From assembly GCA_903916735.1 (NCBI GenBank), contig CAIWXX010000078.1, positions 1-64,000 of the forward strand: a stretch of 64,000 nucleotides of DNA. The letters are read 5' to 3'. This DNA is from an uncultured Acidobacteriota bacterium. GTDB lineage: Bacteria > Acidobacteriota > CAIWXX01. Below are positions 38,015-46,873 of the stretch, piece by piece. Numbering within the stretch: the stretch's first letter is position 1; every line of letters begins with the position of its first letter. The translations under genes and the position numbers were made by a program. A model generated the notes under the pieces. It made no database searches. It was not told where the DNA came from and saw nothing but the letters and a program-made list of their open reading frames with translations.

Positions 38015-38571
38015 TGCATATCGCGATTTCCCCGATTATCGAGTCGGCATTTTATCTCGATCGAGTTCAAAACTAGAAACCCGTCCAGGTCCCCATACCG
38101 GCTCTTGTTCACGACTCGATTTGCAGGGGGGCCTCAAGCAAGCTATCGGGAACTGTCGCGGCAGTGGGTAGGGGATCAAATAAGAGCAAGGATGATTTCC
38201 AGCAACACGTGCCCCCATATCAATGAGTCGAATTTGCGTTTTGAGAGGAGCACGGGCATCCCCGCAAATTGCTCGCGATTCAAAAAGGTGGTTGCTCTCC
38301 GCAGATGCAGGCAACTTCCTCGGGAGCAACGCGATCCGTGCATATGATCAGCCTTGATACTCAGGCGATCAAGCTCGACTGGGGCCAGCCATGAACCAGG
38401 TCCGCCCGTTTCAGCCGATATCCAACCACCGATTGAATAATCAGTACGTGATTCAATTCCACCACATCTATTTGAAAACCTTGCCAAAGGGGATATCGCA
38501 AAACCCCCAACGGTGATTCATTCAATTAATGGAAACTCGTTATCTGCCGATAAGTGCTGAGAGGATTGAAT
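38015..38571. other. Non-coding stretch between divergent genes
   Basis: About 560 bases upstream of the winged-helix gene. Frames here lack motifs and run against each other. No tRNA, repeat array or strong hairpin was seen. The last 60 bases are A/T-rich (ATTCATTCAATTAATGG) and likely hold the operon promoter, though no hexamer pair is strong. GAGAGG precedes the ATG at 38572. Confidence 0.4.
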
Positions 38572-39192
38572 ATGGTCAAAATAAGTGATTTCACCTTTTT
38601 CCAAGCGACGCCGGAATTGCGGGAATTGACTCTCTTGCAGGAAATATCAAAAGACCCTAAGGTGACACAGGAGAAGCTGGCGCGCAGCGCTGGGATCGCA
38701 ACATCCATGGCCAATGTCTACATTAAGGACTTCTGCGATCGAGGCCTTATCACCAAAGATGGGGATAACAGGAGAAACATGGACTACCACATCACCGCCA
38801 AAGGCGAAGAACGCAGGCAGGAGCTTTCAACGTTCTTCATCATTGAAACAGTGATGCTTTATAAGCGCAGCAAAGAGCTGTTTTCCACTCAGATCGGTGA
38901 ATTGCGGCTATTGGGCATCGAGGAAATTATGCTTTTCGGAGCGAGCGATACGTGCGAGATGGTTTCGGCTGTCGCCGAACGATACGGCTTGAAGGTTCTC
39001 GGCATCGTCGACTCCGATCCGAATAAGCACGGTTCAACCTTCTGTGGGCGACAGGTACAAGATCCCTCATTGATCCTCAAACTGAAACCTCAAGCGGTCA
39101 TCATCACCTCGAGTGGCAATATCGACGAGATCGCGGCTTCTCTGACAGAGGCCCAAGCACATGGAATCAAAATCGTCAAACTACAGGTGTAG
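38572..39192 (+). CDS. Winged-helix regulator fused to a Rossmann-like domain
   Basis: A 206-residue protein. Residues 1-85 form a winged helix-turn-helix of the MarR kind (ELTLLQEISKDPKVTQEKLA, then GLITKDG and YHITAKGEERR). Residues 105-206 resemble a nucleotide/CoA-binding or PglD-N-like Rossmann domain (MLFGASDTCEMVSAVAERYG, LGIVDSDPNKHG). Similar fusions sit at the head of surface-sugar clusters and may sense a nucleotide or sugar. It starts the operon that ends with motB, so it is a likely local regulator. Confidence 0.8.
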   Translation: MVKISDFTFFQATPELRELTLLQEISKDPKVTQEKLARSAGIATSMANVYIKDFCDRGLITKDGDNRRNMDYHITAKGEERRQELSTFFIIETVMLYKRSKELFSTQIGELRLLGIEEIMLFGASDTCEMVSAVAERYGLKVLGIVDSDPNKHGSTFCGRQVQDPSLILKLKPQAVIITSSGNIDEIAASLTEAQAHGIKIVKLQV

Positions 39193-39240
39193 AATGAGTT
39201 CTGGGAGCCGAATCAATCACCGTCGAGACTGAGTCAAGAG

Positions 39241-40170
39241 ATGAAAGGCCCGCGTATTCTGTTCATCACACAATGCGGGGCCAAACTCGGTTTTGGCCAC
39301 CTGGTCCGCTCTCAACGCCTCGCTCGGGCTTTGTCCCCCAGATATCAGATTGCATTTCTGGCTGAAGGGATTAAAGGTTTCGAGAAATTCATTCGCCCAC
39401 ACGACATCTGGCAGAAGATCAAGCCGTCGGCATGCATCGTGACAGACCTCGTGCAACCACAACGACTCAAGTATTTCGCCGAGATTGTGCAGCATCACCC
39501 CATCATCAGCATCCATGACATGGGGCTTGGTCAATTCGATTCCGATTGCGCTATCGACGGCTCGATCGTGCAGATCGTGCCCTATCCTCAAAATCGCAAG
39601 AATCTATTTTTCGGTGCGCGATATATGATCCTGGATCATCTTCCTGAGCGGAGGAGGGGGTTTCAGGCTCATCGCGAAGCCATTATTATGAATTTCGGCG
39701 GTGGCGACGTCGCACCCATTTATCGCAAGGCGTTGAAAGCCATGCGGCTGTTGAAGGATCCTATGGAAATTCGCGCGTGCCGTGGGTATATGTCTTGGGA
39801 TTCGATCAAGTGTCCGGCGGTAAAATGGTACGGTCCTGGAGACAATATGTGGGATGCCATCGATGGGTGTCAGATAGGACTATGCGCCGGGGGAATCTCG
39901 CTGTACGAGCTAGCGGCATCTGGTGTTCCAGCGCTGGTCATTTCACATCACCGGGCACAGGAGCGGACGGCGAAGGAATTCGAAAGCCGAGGGGCGGCGA
40001 TTTCACTCGGAACAAAAAGGAGAGTCACCATTGATCTGATCCGACGCGGAGTCGAAACGTTACGATGTGCGGTCGAAACACGGCGAAAAATGGGCCGAGC
40101 AGGCCGACAACTTGTCGATGGACATGGAATTGACCGTGTCTGCAAGATCATTGAAAGGTATGCATCATGA
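39241..40170 (+). CDS. PseG-like UDP-sugar hydrolase/glycosyltransferase
   Basis: A 309-residue GT-B-type protein. FGHLVRSQRLARAL near the N-terminus contains the GxGH-xx-R pattern with His20, the base in PseG. LCAGGISLYELAASGVPALVI in the C-terminal domain is the donor-phosphate region. PseG removes UDP from the trideoxy sugar before NeuB-type condensation. The next gene is a NeuB-family synthase with a four-base overlap, which supports that role. The overall match to characterised PseG is loose, so a LegG- or MurG-like relative is possible. Confidence 0.78.
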   Translation: MKGPRILFITQCGAKLGFGHLVRSQRLARALSPRYQIAFLAEGIKGFEKFIRPHDIWQKIKPSACIVTDLVQPQRLKYFAEIVQHHPIISIHDMGLGQFDSDCAIDGSIVQIVPYPQNRKNLFFGARYMILDHLPERRRGFQAHREAIIMNFGGGDVAPIYRKALKAMRLLKDPMEIRACRGYMSWDSIKCPAVKWYGPGDNMWDAIDGCQIGLCAGGISLYELAASGVPALVISHHRAQERTAKEFESRGAAISLGTKRRVTIDLIRRGVETLRCAVETRRKMGRAGRQLVDGHGIDRVCKIIERYAS

Positions 40171-41189
40171 AAATCGGTCGGAAGAAAATCGGCAATGGAC
40201 AACCTCCTCTTATAGTCGCCGAGATCGGCATCAACCATAACGGCGACGGTTCGTTGGCGATGAGGATGGCAGAAGCCGCTGCTGTTGCGGGAGCCGATGC
40301 GGCCAAGTTACAGGCCTTTCGGACAGTTCGCCTCCTGGCCGGTGGCAACGCGTCATTGAGCCACGTGAGCGGGTCGGTCCATGAGTTTTTCCATCAGATG
40401 GAGCTCGCCCCTCGACAATTTGACCGGGTTGCAAGGGCATGTCACCGCTGTGGTATTTTATTTATCGCGACGCCATTCGATGAAATCAGCGCTGACATGC
40501 TGGTAGAGGCCGGGATAGACTCTTTCAAAATTGCATCCGGCGATATCACTCATTTCCCGCTTCTTTCGCATGTTGGAGCGAAGAAAATTCCGGTGATTTT
40601 ATCGACGGGCGCTGCGACGATCGAGGAGATCCGCGATGCGATCCGTGTCCTCAAACAATCGGGCGCCACCGACATTTGTCTCCTCCACTGTGTCTCCGCT
40701 TATCCAGCTCCAGTCGAAGAGATGAACCTGCGAGCCATAACGGCCATGGGGAAACGATTCAGAATTCCTGTCGGGCTGTCCGACCATACCATGGGAATCA
40801 CGATTTCGCTGGCTGCCGTTGCCTTGGGTGCCGCCCTCATCGAAAAGCACTTCACGCTGAGCCGCCAGCTGCCAGGTCCGGATCAGAAGCTGTCGATCGA
40901 ACCCGGCGAACTGCACGAGCTTACTCAGAAGGCTCGTGAGATACATTCCGCCATGGGGAATGGGAAAAAAGTACCTATGCCGTCGGAAGCCGAGAGCCGG
41001 CGCCAGGGGCGACGAGGGCTATACTTGATCAGGGACATCGAAGCGGGAGAGAAGATCAAAGCCACTGATCTGGCGGTATTAAGGCCTGCGGCGGGGCTAT
41101 CGCCAATATTTATTAAGCACCTCAGAGGAAAAAGAGCTCGACGGAGGCTTCAAGCGGGGCGGCCGCTCGGACCCAACGATCTGGCATGA
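40167..41189 (+). CDS. neuB: NeuB-family nonulosonic acid synthase
   Basis: A 340-residue synthase that condenses phosphoenolpyruvate with a hexosamine to make a nine-carbon acid (sialic, legionaminic or pseudaminic). Visible are AEIGINHNGD (18-27), FIATPFDE, FKIASGD, VILSTGAAT, VGLSDHTMG and IEKHFTL, plus the C-terminal antifreeze-like SAF domain from about 280 (GLYLIRDIEAGEKI). Which acid it makes cannot be told. It is complete. Confidence 0.93.
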   Translation: MKIGRKKIGNGQPPLIVAEIGINHNGDGSLAMRMAEAAAVAGADAAKLQAFRTVRLLAGGNASLSHVSGSVHEFFHQMELAPRQFDRVARACHRCGILFIATPFDEISADMLVEAGIDSFKIASGDITHFPLLSHVGAKKIPVILSTGAATIEEIRDAIRVLKQSGATDICLLHCVSAYPAPVEEMNLRAITAMGKRFRIPVGLSDHTMGITISLAAVALGAALIEKHFTLSRQLPGPDQKLSIEPGELHELTQKAREIHSAMGNGKKVPMPSEAESRRQGRRGLYLIRDIEAGEKIKATDLAVLRPAAGLSPIFIKHLRGKRARRRLQAGRPLGPNDLA

Positions 41190-41219
41190 TCATTGCTTAC
41201 AATCTAAGAGAGAGGGAAT

Positions 41220-42251
41220 ATGCAGCCTGTCAATGTACTCATCACGGCGGCATCCAGAAGGGTCGGGTTGATCCGTGCCTTCTCGCGAGCCTTACGCAAT
41301 CTTAAGAATCCGGGCCAGATCATCACCACAGATATGAATCCGTTTTCGCCGGGCCTCTATTTCAGCAGCCGGCACTATATGGTCCCTCTGACGACTCACC
41401 CAAACTACATCCCCACCATCAAATCCATTTGTGTTCATGAATCGATATCTCTTCTCATTCCGACGATTGACGATGAAATCCCTATTTTTGGCGCCCATCG
41501 AGCAGAGTTCGCTCAGATCGGAACTCGGGTAGCCTGCTGCAGCGCTGAACATGCTACGATCTGCAATGACAAATATGCCACCTATGTCTTTCTAAAGGAA
41601 AAGGGGTTTCCAGTCGCCGAGACCTATCTGCCCGAGAAAGGGCTTCCACGCACCTTTCCGCTCTTCATCAAGCCCAGGTTCGGGCGTGGCAGTATTGGTG
41701 CGCATCCGATCTCGAACGAGCGGGAGCTCGCTTTCTTTCTCCACTATGTGCAGGATCCCGTCGTCCAGGAATATCTCACAGGCCGGGAATTTACGATCGA
41801 TGTTTGCTGTGATTTTGAAGGCCACGTCCTGGAGGTTGTGCCACGGGAAAGGCTAGTGATCAGGGCGGGAGTGAGCGATCGTGGAATCACTGTAAAGCAT
41901 CCTGCCTTAATGGATATCGGTGAACGTGTTGCCACGGCTCTCGAAATCGTCGGTGTGATCAATGTACAAGTGAAGATGGAAGAACACTCCGCCAAGATTT
42001 TTGAAATCAACCCACGATATGCAGGAGGGATCCCGCTTACGATCGCTGCGGGCGCCGATTTCCCGAACTGGCAGGTCAGGATGGTAATGAAGCGCAAAAT
42101 AAAACCACGGATCGGGACGTTTCGGGATGGGCTCATCATGGCCTGTTTCGAGGACGCGCTTTTCCTGAGCCAGGAGCAGATCAAGGAAAAAAGCCTCGTC
42201 AACGATCCTCTGAAAACCAAGCGCAGCTACGAATCCATCCGGGTTCAGTAG
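41220..42251 (+). CDS. ATP-grasp family ligase
   Basis: A 343-residue ATP-grasp enzyme of the carbamoyl-phosphate-synthase-like group. The N-terminus NVLITAASRRVGLI is a Rossmann pre-grasp fold; FIKPRFGRGSIG is the ATP loop, VQEYLTGREFTIDV the next strand, and KIFEINPRYAGGIPL holds the metal ligands (E, N). It should join a carboxylate to an amine or thiol with ATP. Its place among nonulosonic-acid genes suggests amino-acylation or amidation of the sugar, which I cannot show. GAGAGGGA lies upstream. Confidence 0.82.
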   Translation: MQPVNVLITAASRRVGLIRAFSRALRNLKNPGQIITTDMNPFSPGLYFSSRHYMVPLTTHPNYIPTIKSICVHESISLLIPTIDDEIPIFGAHRAEFAQIGTRVACCSAEHATICNDKYATYVFLKEKGFPVAETYLPEKGLPRTFPLFIKPRFGRGSIGAHPISNERELAFFLHYVQDPVVQEYLTGREFTIDVCCDFEGHVLEVVPRERLVIRAGVSDRGITVKHPALMDIGERVATALEIVGVINVQVKMEEHSAKIFEINPRYAGGIPLTIAAGADFPNWQVRMVMKRKIKPRIGTFRDGLIMACFEDALFLSQEQIKEKSLVNDPLKTKRSYESIRVQ

Positions 42252-42268
42252 GTTGAGGAGGATTGGGG

Positions 42269-42976
42269 ATGAAAGCGGTGATTCTGGCCGGTGGCCGAGG
42301 AACTCGTCTGGCCCCCTACACGACCGTGTTCCCCAAGCCACTCGTCCCCATATCCGATCGGCCGATCATCGATATCATCCTGCAACAGCTGGCTCAATAC
42401 GGTATCACCGACGTGACCATTTCACTCGGGCACCTCGGGCACCTCATCCAGGCTTATTATGCAGCAGGTTCAGTCTACGGCCTGCGGCTGAGTTATGTCT
42501 CTGAATCGCAACCTCTTGGAACAGCGGGGTCACTCACGCTCGTTCCTGGTTTGGATTCCACCTTCCTTGTCATGAACGGAGATATTCTGAGTACGCTGGA
42601 TTATCATGCTTTGATCTGCCACCATCGCACCGTTGGAGCCGGCCTCACCATTGCAACCCACCTCAAAGAGGTCCGCATCGACTTGGGGGTGTTGGAAACC
42701 GGCGCCGAGGATCTTGTGATCGGCTATCATGAAAAACCGGTCAAGCATTTTCCAGTCAGTATGGGAATTTATATTTATGAGCCTCGGATTCTGAAACTCA
42801 TTTCGCCCGGAGAATACCTGGATTTTCCTGATCTCGTGACACGAGCCATCAACGCCTGTGAAAAGGTTGTCGCCTATAAAAACGATGCCGTGTGGCTCGA
42901 TATCGGACGACGCGAGGACTACGAAGACGCTCAACGTGTTTTCGAAGAAAGGCGGAGGGAGTTCATTGATTTCTGA
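42269..42976 (+). CDS. Sugar-phosphate nucleotidyltransferase
   Basis: A 235-residue single-domain enzyme. LAGGRGTRLAPYT and FPKPLVPI are the nucleotide loops, FLVMNGDIL holds the metal aspartate, and WLDIGRREDYEDA the C-terminal motif of the glucose-1-phosphate thymidylyl/guanylyltransferase class. In legionaminic acid pathways a similar enzyme (PtmE) makes GDP-glucosamine. Substrate and nucleotide are unknown here. AGGAGG fixes the ATG at 42269. Confidence 0.88.
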   Translation: MKAVILAGGRGTRLAPYTTVFPKPLVPISDRPIIDIILQQLAQYGITDVTISLGHLGHLIQAYYAAGSVYGLRLSYVSESQPLGTAGSLTLVPGLDSTFLVMNGDILSTLDYHALICHHRTVGAGLTIATHLKEVRIDLGVLETGAEDLVIGYHEKPVKHFPVSMGIYIYEPRILKLISPGEYLDFPDLVTRAINACEKVVAYKNDAVWLDIGRREDYEDAQRVFEERRREFIDF

Positions 42977-43745
42977 AGTGAATCCTGCCGTCCGCGGCAT
43001 TCTTCAAGCGCGCATGGGATCGTCCCGCCTGCCCGGGAAAGTTCTCATGCACCTGGCCGGAAAGACGATTCTGGCCCATTGCATCGATCGTATGAAGGAA
43101 TCGAAAATTTTCAAAACGATCATCGTCGCGACCACTACCTCCGAACATGATACAGCCATCTGCGACGAAGCTCAGAGGAACGCCGTTTCCTTTTTCCGCG
43201 GCCCCGAAGAAGATGTCCTCGGACGGTTCCTTGGAGCCATGGCGCTATTTCCTTCGGACATTGTCGTCAGAGTAACCGGCGACAACCCTCTCACAGACCC
43301 GGTATCAATCGCACGTTGTGTCGATGAACTCCGGCATGGTCAATGGGATTATGTGGCCGAAGAAGGACTCCCATTTGGCGCAGCATCCGAGATCATAACC
43401 GGAGATGCACTCCGTCTCATCGGGCAGCTAGCTCGCTCTCCCGCGCACCGCGAACATGTCACTCTCTATCTCCGGGAAAATCCACAGGAGTTTCGAATTA
43501 AGTTTTTGAAAAGCCCTGCCGAACGTGAGGGGACTGATGTTCGAGTCACCGTCGACACTGAAAAAGATCTCCTACGATTGCGTTCTTTCATGGGCCAAAG
43601 TATTTTAACTTTTCACCCATTCTCCATGAAGGATTTCCTCGATCGATTACGGCAATTAAAGCCGGGCGCCGGCTGTGCCGATATAGTAGGGGGAACGGGA
43701 GGGGCGAAGTGTGCCCGGATGCAAGCTAATGGAGAGCGAGGATGA
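42966..43745 (+). CDS. SpsF/CMP-sugar cytidylyltransferase-like protein
   Basis: A 259-residue protein of the cytidylyltransferase family. GILQARMGSSRLPGKVL is the nucleotide loop typical of SpsF; VVRVTGDNPLTDP and a VRVTVDTEKDLLRL segment follow. In this setting it probably activates the nine-carbon acid with CMP. The start is a TTG at 42966, with GGAGG seven bases upstream, overlapping the preceding gene; a GTG at 42978 is an alternative. The last residues (GGAKCARMQANGERG) extend beyond the usual end. Confidence 0.82.
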   Translation: MISEVNPAVRGILQARMGSSRLPGKVLMHLAGKTILAHCIDRMKESKIFKTIIVATTTSEHDTAICDEAQRNAVSFFRGPEEDVLGRFLGAMALFPSDIVVRVTGDNPLTDPVSIARCVDELRHGQWDYVAEEGLPFGAASEIITGDALRLIGQLARSPAHREHVTLYLRENPQEFRIKFLKSPAEREGTDVRVTVDTEKDLLRLRSFMGQSILTFHPFSMKDFLDRLRQLKPGAGCADIVGGTGGAKCARMQANGERG

Positions 43746-44023
43746 TCAAACTAACACGGCTCAACTCGAGCGAGATCATCGTCAACTCGGATCTCATTGA
43801 GTTCATTGAGCTCACGCCTGATACCATCATCTCCCTCACAACGGGAGAAAAAATTCTCGTGAAGGAAAAGGCAGACGAGATCATCAACAAAATCGTGGAA
43901 TATAAGAAGTTGGTCTTGAGTCGTGAAATCCCACTTCGCGTCAATTCATCACAGAGCCCCGAGGGCGTCGATGAAGAGAGGCTTGTAGAAATGCCACGTC
44001 TGAAGGTGGTCGAAAGGGACTGA
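43742..44023 (+). CDS. flbD: Flagellar protein FlbD
   Basis: A 93-residue protein. The first 60 residues, MIKLTRLNSSEIIVNSDLIE followed by ITGEKILVKE-like strands and VEYKKLV, are the FlbD pattern. FlbD genes usually precede motA/motB, as here. The role is poorly known but linked to flagellar assembly or motor function. The C-terminal 35 residues are variable. It overlaps the SpsF-like gene by ATGA and so belongs to the same operon. Confidence 0.92.
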   Translation: MIKLTRLNSSEIIVNSDLIEFIELTPDTIISLTTGEKILVKEKADEIINKIVEYKKLVLSREIPLRVNSSQSPEGVDEERLVEMPRLKVVERD

Positions 44024-44026
44024 GAT

Positions 44027-44827
44027 ATGGACCTCACATCAGTCGGCGGCTTGATCCTCGGCATAGCTGCCATACTGCTTGGTCAGGTACTTGAAGGAGG
44101 CCGGATCGGCTCCATTTTGCAGCCGACGGCCGCCCTCATCGTCTTTGGGGGAACAATCGGCGCTACCATTTTAGGGTTCCCCCTGCATGTCGTCATGGCT
44201 GCCATGAAAGCAATTACTTCTGTATTCACCGAAAAAAAGGTTAACCCGGAAGCGGTCATCGAAGAAATCATCCGGTTTGCCAATAAGGCAAGAAAAGAAG
44301 GCATCATCTCTCTTGAAGGAGAAATGGACAGCGTCAAGGATCCCTTTTTAAAGAAGGCCTTGATGTTGGCCATTGATGGAACCGATCCTAGAGTTCTCCG
44401 CCAGACGATGGAAGTCGAGCTGGCCTATCACGAGGAGCATGGGGAGCAGCCGGCGAAAGTCTTTGAGGCAGCCGGCGGATTTTCGCCGACGATCGGAATT
44501 CTGGGCGCCGTCCTCGGGCTCATTCACGTCATGGAAAATCTCGCCGATGCATCCAAGCTCGGCGAAGGGATCGCCGTTGCTTTTGTCGCGACGGTCTATG
44601 GTGTCGGTTTGGCTAACCTGATCCTACTGCCGATGGCCTCCAAACTGAAAGCCAAGCACCGAGCCGACATGGTCATGCAGGAAATGATGTTGGAAGGTTC
44701 AATGTCGGTTCAGGAGGGCCTGAACCCGCGAATCATAGAAGAGAAGCTAATTTCGTTCCTGACAGAGGAACAGAAGTTGCGCTGGAAGGAAAAGGCCGGC
44801 GCGAAAACCAAGAGAAAGGCCGCCTGA
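44027..44827 (+). CDS. motA: Flagellar motor stator protein MotA
   Basis: A 266-residue inner-membrane protein with four helices (about 7-23, 33-55, 150-170, 183-205). GGTIGATILGFP follows helix two, and GGFSPTIGILGAVLGLIHVMENL holds the conserved proline of helix three. The cytoplasmic loop includes DP-x-x-R charge pairs. It pairs with MotB to form the ion channel. Sodium versus proton use is not evident. Confidence 0.94.
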   Translation: MDLTSVGGLILGIAAILLGQVLEGGRIGSILQPTAALIVFGGTIGATILGFPLHVVMAAMKAITSVFTEKKVNPEAVIEEIIRFANKARKEGIISLEGEMDSVKDPFLKKALMLAIDGTDPRVLRQTMEVELAYHEEHGEQPAKVFEAAGGFSPTIGILGAVLGLIHVMENLADASKLGEGIAVAFVATVYGVGLANLILLPMASKLKAKHRADMVMQEMMLEGSMSVQEGLNPRIIEEKLISFLTEEQKLRWKEKAGAKTKRKAA

Positions 44828-45699
44828 TGCCACGTAAAAGAAAAGAAGAACACGCCAATCACGAGCGGTGGCTGGTGTCGTACGCGGATTTCATCACACT
44901 TCTCTTCGCATTCTTCACGGTCCTCTACGCCATCTCATCAGTGGATTCGAAGAAAATGGGGAAAATGGTCGTGGCCATGCAGATGGCTTTTGACACAAAT
45001 GGATTCGCGGCCAAGGATTCCAAGGTTGGATTGTCCCAGTCGGAGGGTGCCGTCTCCATCGAAGAACAATTAGCAAGGGGGATCATGCCCCCATCCTCGA
45101 CCGCATCATCGAGACGCCTTACGCAAAATCGTGACAAGAAGAATTCCGTGTCGGCCCAGAAGATCAACATCGAAATCATCAAGTCGCGCGTCGAGGATGC
45201 GATCAAGGATGAGAATCTCAAGAACCGAGTGAGCATCGTCAAAGAGGATCGCGGGCTGGTGATCTCGCTGGCCGAACAGGGATTTTTCGACCCAGGCAAG
45301 GCGTATGTCAGGAATGAAGCGATTCCGATTCTCTATAAAATCGGCTCTTCTCTGATGGGACTCCCCAACCAGATCCGGATCGAAGGGCACACTGACAACA
45401 GGCCGATCAATACGCTTTTATTTCCTTCTAATTGGGAGCTTTCAACGGGGCGAGCAACCTTTATCATACAGTATCTGCTCTCGAACTTCCCCTATTCGCC
45501 CGAGCTTCTTTCTGCTGCCGGATACGGGGAATATCGGCCTGTCGACACGAATGATACCGTGGACGGCCGTGCCAAGAACCGTCGGGTCGACATCGTCATC
45601 CTGAACGAAGTTTATAGCCGAGCCGAAGAGCCTGTTCCCTATCCGAAGACAATTCCCGAAGATAACGCCAGAAAGGATCTGTCGAATCCCGCTTTGTGA
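44827..45699 (+). CDS. motB: Flagellar motor stator protein MotB
   Basis: A 290-residue stator protein. One N-terminal helix contains SYADFITLLFAFF with the ion-carrying Asp21. A linker of about 100 residues follows, then an OmpA-like peptidoglycan-binding domain from about 150 (IRIEGHTDNRPI, NWELSTGRA, GYGEYRPV, NRRVDIVI). Its ATG overlaps the motA stop by one base. Its stop is ten bases from that of the convergent aminotransferase. Confidence 0.94.
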   Translation: MPRKRKEEHANHERWLVSYADFITLLFAFFTVLYAISSVDSKKMGKMVVAMQMAFDTNGFAAKDSKVGLSQSEGAVSIEEQLARGIMPPSSTASSRRLTQNRDKKNSVSAQKINIEIIKSRVEDAIKDENLKNRVSIVKEDRGLVISLAEQGFFDPGKAYVRNEAIPILYKIGSSLMGLPNQIRIEGHTDNRPINTLLFPSNWELSTGRATFIIQYLLSNFPYSPELLSAAGYGEYRPVDTNDTVDGRAKNRRVDIVILNEVYSRAEEPVPYPKTIPEDNARKDLSNPAL

Positions 45700-45709
45700 G
45701 TGCCCGGCG

Positions 45710-46873
45710 TCATATCGCCGGCCGTGCTTTCCGTCTGGCGCCTGCAAGTGCTTCTTTCAGGCAGCGAACCACCCAGGTCAATTGTCCCTCGGTCATATGA
45801 GGGAAAAGTGGCAAGGTCAGCAGTCGAGGCGCAACGGCTTCCAAACATGGCAGATGCGTCTCTTTCCCGATTATCCGTTGGTAATATGTGAAAGTATGAA
45901 TCGGACGGTAGTGAATGCTCGTCTGTATTCCATGCTCACGAAGAAACACCATGACCGCATGACGATCCGCACCTGGAGGGAGCAGGATCGACATGATGTG
46001 ATAGGTTGGACGACCTTTGCACCCGGCGAACGGCACAATCAATCCACTGATTGGCGCAAGCTCTTTCCGATACCTCGTGACAATCCTTTCGCGGCGTGCG
46101 TTCTGTTGTTCAAGGCGCTGGAGCTGCGCGATGCCAAGGGCCGAACGAAGCTCATCGATGCGGTAATTATGGCCGGCCAGCAGTACGTCGTAATCGAATG
46201 AGTGCCCTTGGTGGCGTTCGTAACTCAGCGTCGTCATCCCGTGCGACCGGAGCAAGCGGAGTCGGCCGGCCAGGTGATCATCTGAGGTGACAACCATGCC
46301 GCCCTCGGCCGTGGTGATGTTCTTATTCGAATAGAAACTGAAGCAGCCGACGTCGCCCAGGGCCCCGCACATACGGCGATTCAATTGCGCGCCGATCGAG
46401 TGCGCCGCGTCTTCGACGATGGCGATTCCTCGTTTTCGCAGGTGTGGAGCGATCCGTGACAGGTCGACGGGATAGCCGGCGTAATCAACTGTTGCGACTG
46501 CTTTGGTTTTCGGAGTGATCTTTCGCTCGATGTCTTCGGGAGAGATGTGGAGGCATCGACTGCTCACGATGTCAACAAAAACGGGCGTTGCTCCGGTCAT
46601 CACAACGGCGTTGGCTGTCGCAACAAAGGAAAGCGATGGGCAGAGGACTTCATCTCCGGGCCCGACACCGATCGCCGCGAATGCCATATGAAGGGCAGCC
46701 GTTCCGGATGAGACGGCGAATGCATATCGAGTTCCAACGAGCTGTGCGACCCGTCTTTCAAATTCTTCGGTGATGGGACCCATCGTAATCCAATTGGTCG
46801 CCATTGCCCGGTCGACGGCCCGGCGATCTGCCGCGCCGAGGCGTAGGTCAAAGAGAGGCACCTTCCATTTCAT
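45710..46873 (-). CDS. DegT/DnrJ/EryC1/StrS family aminotransferase
   Basis: A 387-residue PLP-dependent sugar aminotransferase. The N-terminal VPLFDLR, SSGTAALHMA phosphate site, DYAGYPVDL, VEDAAHSIGA and YSNKNITTAEGGM with the PLP Lys184 are all present. Such enzymes make amino-deoxy-sugars for surface glycans, including the LegC/PseC step. The gene lies at the end of the minus-strand glycan cluster, against the nonulosonate operon, so it could complete that pathway. The substrate is inferred only. Confidence 0.92.
   Translation of the reverse strand: MKWKVPLFDLRLGAADRRAVDRAMATNWITMGPITEEFERRVAQLVGTRYAFAVSSGTAALHMAFAAIGVGPGDEVLCPSLSFVATANAVVMTGATPVFVDIVSSRCLHISPEDIERKITPKTKAVATVDYAGYPVDLSRIAPHLRKRGIAIVEDAAHSIGAQLNRRMCGALGDVGCFSFYSNKNITTAEGGMVVTSDDHLAGRLRLLRSHGMTTLSYERHQGHSFDYDVLLAGHNYRIDELRSALGIAQLQRLEQQNARRERIVTRYRKELAPISGLIVPFAGCKGRPTYHIMSILLPPGADRHAVMVFLREHGIQTSIHYRPIHTFTYYQRIIGKETHLPCLEAVAPRLLTLPLFPHMTEGQLTWVVRCLKEALAGARRKARPAI

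Follow-up and report, generated by a model that had tools for sequence, protein, structure and literature searches.

Nonulosonic acid genes and flagellar stator genes in a conserved, probably co-transcribed unit of the Acidobacteriota

Why should genes for the synthesis of a nonulosonic acid run directly into genes for the flagellar motor? The question is raised by nine plus-strand genes (positions 38572-45699) in the window analysed here, which spans the first 64 kb of contig C78 in an Acidobacteriota genome (G000; 5.37 Mb in 183 contigs). Open reading frame calls and domain scans placed all nine where the initial annotation had put them: a winged-helix protein, a run of predicted sugar enzymes that includes an ATP-grasp ligase, and then FlbD, MotA, and MotB. 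The block is likely to be a co-transcribed flagellar unit that would provide a CMP-nonulosonic acid, legionaminic-like in this genome, for flagellin together with the stator.

The first of the sugar genes encodes a PseG/LegG-like NDP-sugar hydrolase (39241-40170), recognised by its conserved place before NeuB and by a weak match to TIGR03590 (E=6.3e-12; 45.7 bits, below the cut-off of 153.6). It is followed by a NeuB-family nonulosonate synthase (40167-41189), identified by PF03102 (E=8.7e-81) and a SAF domain (PF08666), which is the only strong NeuB match in its own genome. Its scores against TIGR03569 (337 bits) and PseI (286 bits) are both under the cut-offs, and its relatives in the PDB are SpsE (1vli, the top match), SiaC (1xuu), and a Pse synthase (8h2c). 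Next come a predicted PylC-like ATP-grasp carboxylate-amine ligase of the PRK12767 group (41220-42251) and a sugar-1-phosphate nucleotidyltransferase (NTPt; 42269-42976; PF00483, E=7e-37), for which we propose a PtmE-like role and whose best NCBIfam group, mannose-1-phosphate guanylyltransferase, scored below its cut-off. The last sugar gene encodes an SpsF/NeuA-like enzyme (42966-43745), identified as a CMP-nonulosonate cytidylyltransferase by its CTP_transf_3 domain (PF02348, E=7.6e-34). The flagellar half consists of FlbD (43742-44023; PF06289, E=6.7e-26), the stator subunit MotA (44027-44827; MotA_ExbB; PF01618 and PF20560, and 304 bits against NF006583, above the cut-off of 237), and the stator subunit MotB (44827-45699; MotB_plug domain PF13677 and OmpA domain PF00691). 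A DegT/PseC-LegC-like aminotransferase gene (45710-46873, minus strand) is convergent with the block and lies 10 bp past MotB.

The block is a real conserved unit and does not belong to this genome alone. The ATP-grasp protein served as the query against 396 genomes of the phylum, whose matching neighbourhoods were then read, so that clusters without this gene would escape the survey. The order PseG-(HAD)-NeuB-ATP-grasp-(NTPt-DegT)-SpsF-(FlbD)-MotA-MotB was present in 17 genomes (G000, G001, G014, G053, G112, G124, G174, G190, G195, G198, G202, G249, G268, G273, G324, G332, and G366) from seven families (f1, f14, f23, f27, f32, f45, and f57). The PseG-like gene precedes NeuB in all clusters, and spsF keeps its place directly 3' of ATP-grasp, NTPt, or DegT. 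A search of genome contigs for related loci returned a single solid named relative, the Acidobacteria metagenome-assembled genome (MAG) 13_1_20CM_2_55_15 (L044; MNKP01000112), which has PseG-NeuB-ATP-grasp-FlbD-MotA-MotB with no SpsF in that run. The comparison in relatives called for by the initial annotation thus found the order well beyond one genome. Its remark that motor and sugar genes are rarely one unit holds only in part, as the combination is recurrent in this phylum and MotA and MotB are also included in the pseudaminic-acid flagellar island of Clostridium beijerinckii (PMC13317340). In most relatives, a HAD-family hydrolase gene lies between PseG and NeuB (for example, L095 7364-8044); it is not found there in the window, in G001, or in L044.

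The proposal that the sugar is made for flagellin is backed by the surroundings of the block in the relatives. Outside the family of the window, 15 clusters of the phylum genomes include MotAB. In 13 of these, fliC is the block's neighbour on the opposite strand, usually together with fliD; for the remaining two (G014 and G195), the stretch read goes no further than PseG. Flagellin is also divergently adjacent to the block in G142, which is without MotAB, while no flagellin was found within the short stretch upstream of the block in L044. The block has Maf-like genes as neighbours in G014, G273, G249, and G190. The adjacency in the relatives therefore supports a flagellin glycan more directly than the window does by itself.

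In the pathway that we propose, NTPt would make an NDP-amino sugar, a LegB-type enzyme encoded on contig C117 would dehydrate it, the DegT enzyme would then add an amine, and a GNAT acetyltransferase encoded near the flagellin gene on contig C65 would acetylate the amino sugar. The PseG-like hydrolase would release the sugar from the NDP, NeuB would condense the freed sugar with phosphoenolpyruvate, and SpsF would activate the nonulosonic acid with CMP. The ATP-grasp enzyme probably links a carboxylate, such as an amino acid, to an amine of the sugar, and a Maf-type glycosyltransferase encoded elsewhere would transfer the product to flagellin, with flbD-motA-motB as the downstream part yielding the stator.

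The initial annotation had placed the missing steps elsewhere in the genome and had suggested the convergent DegT gene as the aminotransferase, and both expectations now have candidates behind them. The LegB-type protein matched TIGR04180 best by far (396 bits, below the cut-off of 475) and is a 64% orthologue of a LegB-type dehydratase (391 bits against the same model) that lies inside the operon of G001, a member of the window's family, between ATP-grasp and NTPt. DegT (PF01041, E=3.9e-108) scored higher against the PseC model TIGR03588 (333 bits) than against LegC (234 bits), both below cut-off. When the DegT located inside the operon of G202 (family f27) is compared with the window's genome, this protein is the best match (45%), and a 68% orthologue has been retained in G001 downstream of the operon there; it is thus the probable aminotransferase of the pathway. 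The GNAT gene lies beside fliS-fliD-fliC (C65, 2452-3381; L106 2452-3381), and GNAT proteins of one family are found near most of the nonulosonate-motor clusters. No PseB was found beside the window's operon, the rest of the genome not having been searched for it. A 45-residue piece on contig C24 (5758-5892; L087 5758-5892), which matches the beginning of LegB at 78% identity, is an apparent remnant of a second copy.

Several features of the window's own genome weigh against this reading. Flagellin, FliD, and FliS are encoded on C65, apart from the operon, so that the adjacency seen in the relatives is missing here, and the Maf, LegB, and GNAT genes are likewise on other contigs. The Maf candidate, a Maf_flag10_N/MptE-like protein with a score over the cut-off, is on C120 (36101-37945), unlinked to the operon. 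The GNAT protein is just ~22-29% identical to the cluster-linked GNATs. Furthermore, PseG, NeuB, ATP-grasp, LegB, and DegT all scored below the NCBIfam equivalog cut-offs, and the exact sugar is therefore not fixed by these scores. Finally, a second MotB_plug gene (C92, 11792-11944), making two in total, means that the stator of the operon may not be the only one of this genome. The gene for the Maf-type glycosyltransferase has as its neighbours ftsZ/ftsA and further genes for cell division and murein, not flagellar genes.

The ATP-grasp enzyme was singled out in the initial annotation as an unusual member. It has a PylC-like N-terminal domain (PF21360) and an ATP-grasp domain (PF02655), both over cut-off, as well as PF15632 (ATPgrasp_Ter), and it scored 293 bits against PRK12767, below the cut-off of 390. 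The closest relative in the PDB is 2pn1 (E=1.9e-38), while the match to PylC (4ffl) is weak. All 19 sequences compared share K118, K151, E262, and R266, and 18 of them also have N264, a set consistent with an active ATP-grasp site. These domains and ATP- and metal-site residues assign the protein to the PylC-like ATP-grasp ligases. The predicted structure (mean pLDDT 38) was too poor to use, and a tblastn search of plasmids returned relatives of ~30-34% identity at best. A second ATP-grasp paralogue (34%), directly followed by a LegB-like dehydratase (30%), is encoded on contig C64 (L088 1342-3265).

In line with the suggestion of the initial annotation that it may attach an amino acid or amine, we favour with moderate confidence a role in joining an amino acid or another carboxylate to a sugar amine. 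The idea that the enzyme stands in for the missing acetyltransferase is weakened by the GNAT genes near most clusters and near the genome's own fliS-fliD-fliC. It is less likely, though worth weighing, that the enzyme acts outside sugar acylation, in modification of flagellin or another peptide or in an unrelated ligation: PRK12767 is a functionally undefined group, and peptides can be substrates of ATP-grasp ligases, according to work cited in PMC3765264. However, no copy of the unit lacks the gene, whose constant place, flanked by NeuB and by SpsF or NTPt, is the one expected of a pathway enzyme.

Two flagellin modification systems provide leads for the favoured amidoligation, by analogy and as compared by description rather than by sequence. 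The sfmABCDE operon of Shewanella oneidensis combines a PseI-like protein with an ATP-grasp protein (sfmE), although it also holds a reductase and a methyltransferase, the species is without PseG, PseI, and PseF proper, and that paper makes no mention of stator genes (PMC3765264). In the type B island of Clostridioides difficile, an ATP-grasp protein resembling carbamoyl-phosphate synthetase (CDR20291_0245) is encoded downstream of the flagellin glycosyltransferases (PMC5207246), and the glycan carries an amide-linked taurinyl-Ala-Gly (PMC5207245). However, the glycan described there is built from different sugars and contains no nonulosonic acid, and the passage cited has no stator genes. More tentatively, the unit might couple the stator across the phylum to an unusual nonulosonic acid formed by ATP-grasp amidoligation before CMP activation, which would represent a new class of flagellin glycan.

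A single transcript of the nine genes is probable from their spacing. Re-reading the domains and junctions bore out the description of a tight series with gaps under 50 bases, as every junction is either an overlap or a gap of at most 48 bp. The winged-helix gene and PseG are 48 bp apart, PseG and NeuB overlap by 4 bp, NeuB and ATP-grasp are separated by 30 bp and ATP-grasp and NTPt by 11-17 bp, and NTPt overlaps spsF, which has a TTG start with an alternative GTG at 42978. The sugar half is joined to the flagellar half by a 4-bp overlap between spsF and flbD and a 3-bp gap between flbD and motA, and motA and motB overlap by 1 bp. A scan for sigma-70-like promoters gave eight sites, against 5.2 +/- 2.6 expected by chance; none was on the plus strand from neuB to the end of motB, and no convincing promoter was seen inside the block. 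That the sugar and stator genes are two adjacent transcription units, separately expressed and together by proximity only, is improbable. In a few relatives, spsF and the flagellar genes are further apart, by ~0.4-0.5 kb in G202 for example, and in G142 the sugar block with SpsF is followed by a PseB-like gene, with no MotAB at that position. In the window, however, spsF and flbD overlap, with no promoter-like site found there, and the adjacency of sugar and stator genes is kept over seven families.

We regard it as slightly more improbable still that the nonulosonic acid is made for a surface polysaccharide (exopolysaccharide, capsule, or lipopolysaccharide), with the flagellar genes as neighbours or co-regulated for attachment. 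This would fit the MarR_EPS/NeuD-like first gene, the glycosyltransferase-like genes near LegB in the window's genome, and the separation of flagellin from the operon there. However, the neighbours of the block in most relatives are flagellin and fliD, sometimes with Maf, and not a cluster for polysaccharide export, and a Maf-type enzyme is encoded in the window's genome. Chance clustering is ruled out by the recurrence in seven families, and an order conserved at such divergence (mean pairwise identities of ~53% for ATP-grasp, ~50% for MotA, ~46% for NeuB, and ~34% for PseG) is not accidental. The ATP-grasp and MotA distances are modestly correlated (Mantel rho 0.35, 1/2000 permutations).

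The flagellar unit seems to come in two flavours. LegB was present in six of the seven genomes with NTPt in the cluster, the window's genome included, but in none of the 11 without it, and the lone genome with NTPt and no LegB found is an 81% complete assembly (Fisher's exact ~0.0004, calculated by hand). Because each group also forms a clade of its own, the association may stem from a single evolutionary event. In several of the clusters that lack NTPt, MotB or SpsF is followed by a PseB-like gene that scored far under the PseB cut-off. From this gene content, we read the combination of NTPt and a genomic LegB, as in the window's lineage, as legionaminic-like, while the flavour that lacks both and often includes a PseB-like dehydratase is perhaps pseudaminic-like.

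Sugar genes beside flagellar genes are of a known kind. The pseudaminic and legionaminic acid flagellin islands of Campylobacter, Aeromonas, Clostridium, and Geobacillus similarly have CMP-nonulosonate genes near flagellin and Maf. Unlike in those islands, the stator genes here follow the sugar genes in one tight run across the phylum, an invariant ATP-grasp ligase lies between NeuB and SpsF, and in the window's genome flagellin and Maf are unlinked. Bacillus subtilis SpsC-SpsG share the DegT, NeuB (SpsE), CMP-transferase (SpsF), and PseG-like (SpsG) proteins, which are spore-coat polysaccharide enzymes and thus not flagellar. A tight run of this kind, conserved across the phylum, with the stator included and ATP-grasp at its core, seems to be new, and a limited search of the open-access literature found no description of the cluster in Acidobacteria. 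Nonulosonic acids on flagellin have mostly been studied in pathogens, and the unit in these mainly environmental bacteria would offer a clean setting for studying the reasons for coupling motility to glycan synthesis. Its invariant ATP-grasp enzyme is a pointer to sugar chemistry not yet described, which is directly testable.

The first gene of the block (38572-39192, with possible starts at 38554, GTG, or 38572, ATG) encodes a winged-helix domain (HTH_24, E=2.2e-7; MarR_EPS, TIGR04176, 1.2e-7, below cut-off) joined to a Rossmann-like domain. Residues 119-202 show weak similarity to the N-terminal part of NeuD/PglD (TIGR03570, 2.5e-5, below cut-off). The protein is a putative operon regulator, and our guess is that it senses a sugar nucleotide, possibly as one of a family of such regulators; its predicted structure (mean pLDDT 55) was too poor to use. 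A 52% orthologue is found at the equivalent place in G001, and the gene was seen at the head of the operon only in these two genomes. Proteins related to this winged-helix/NeuD-N-like fusion are encoded in 26 of the 396 genomes of the phylum.

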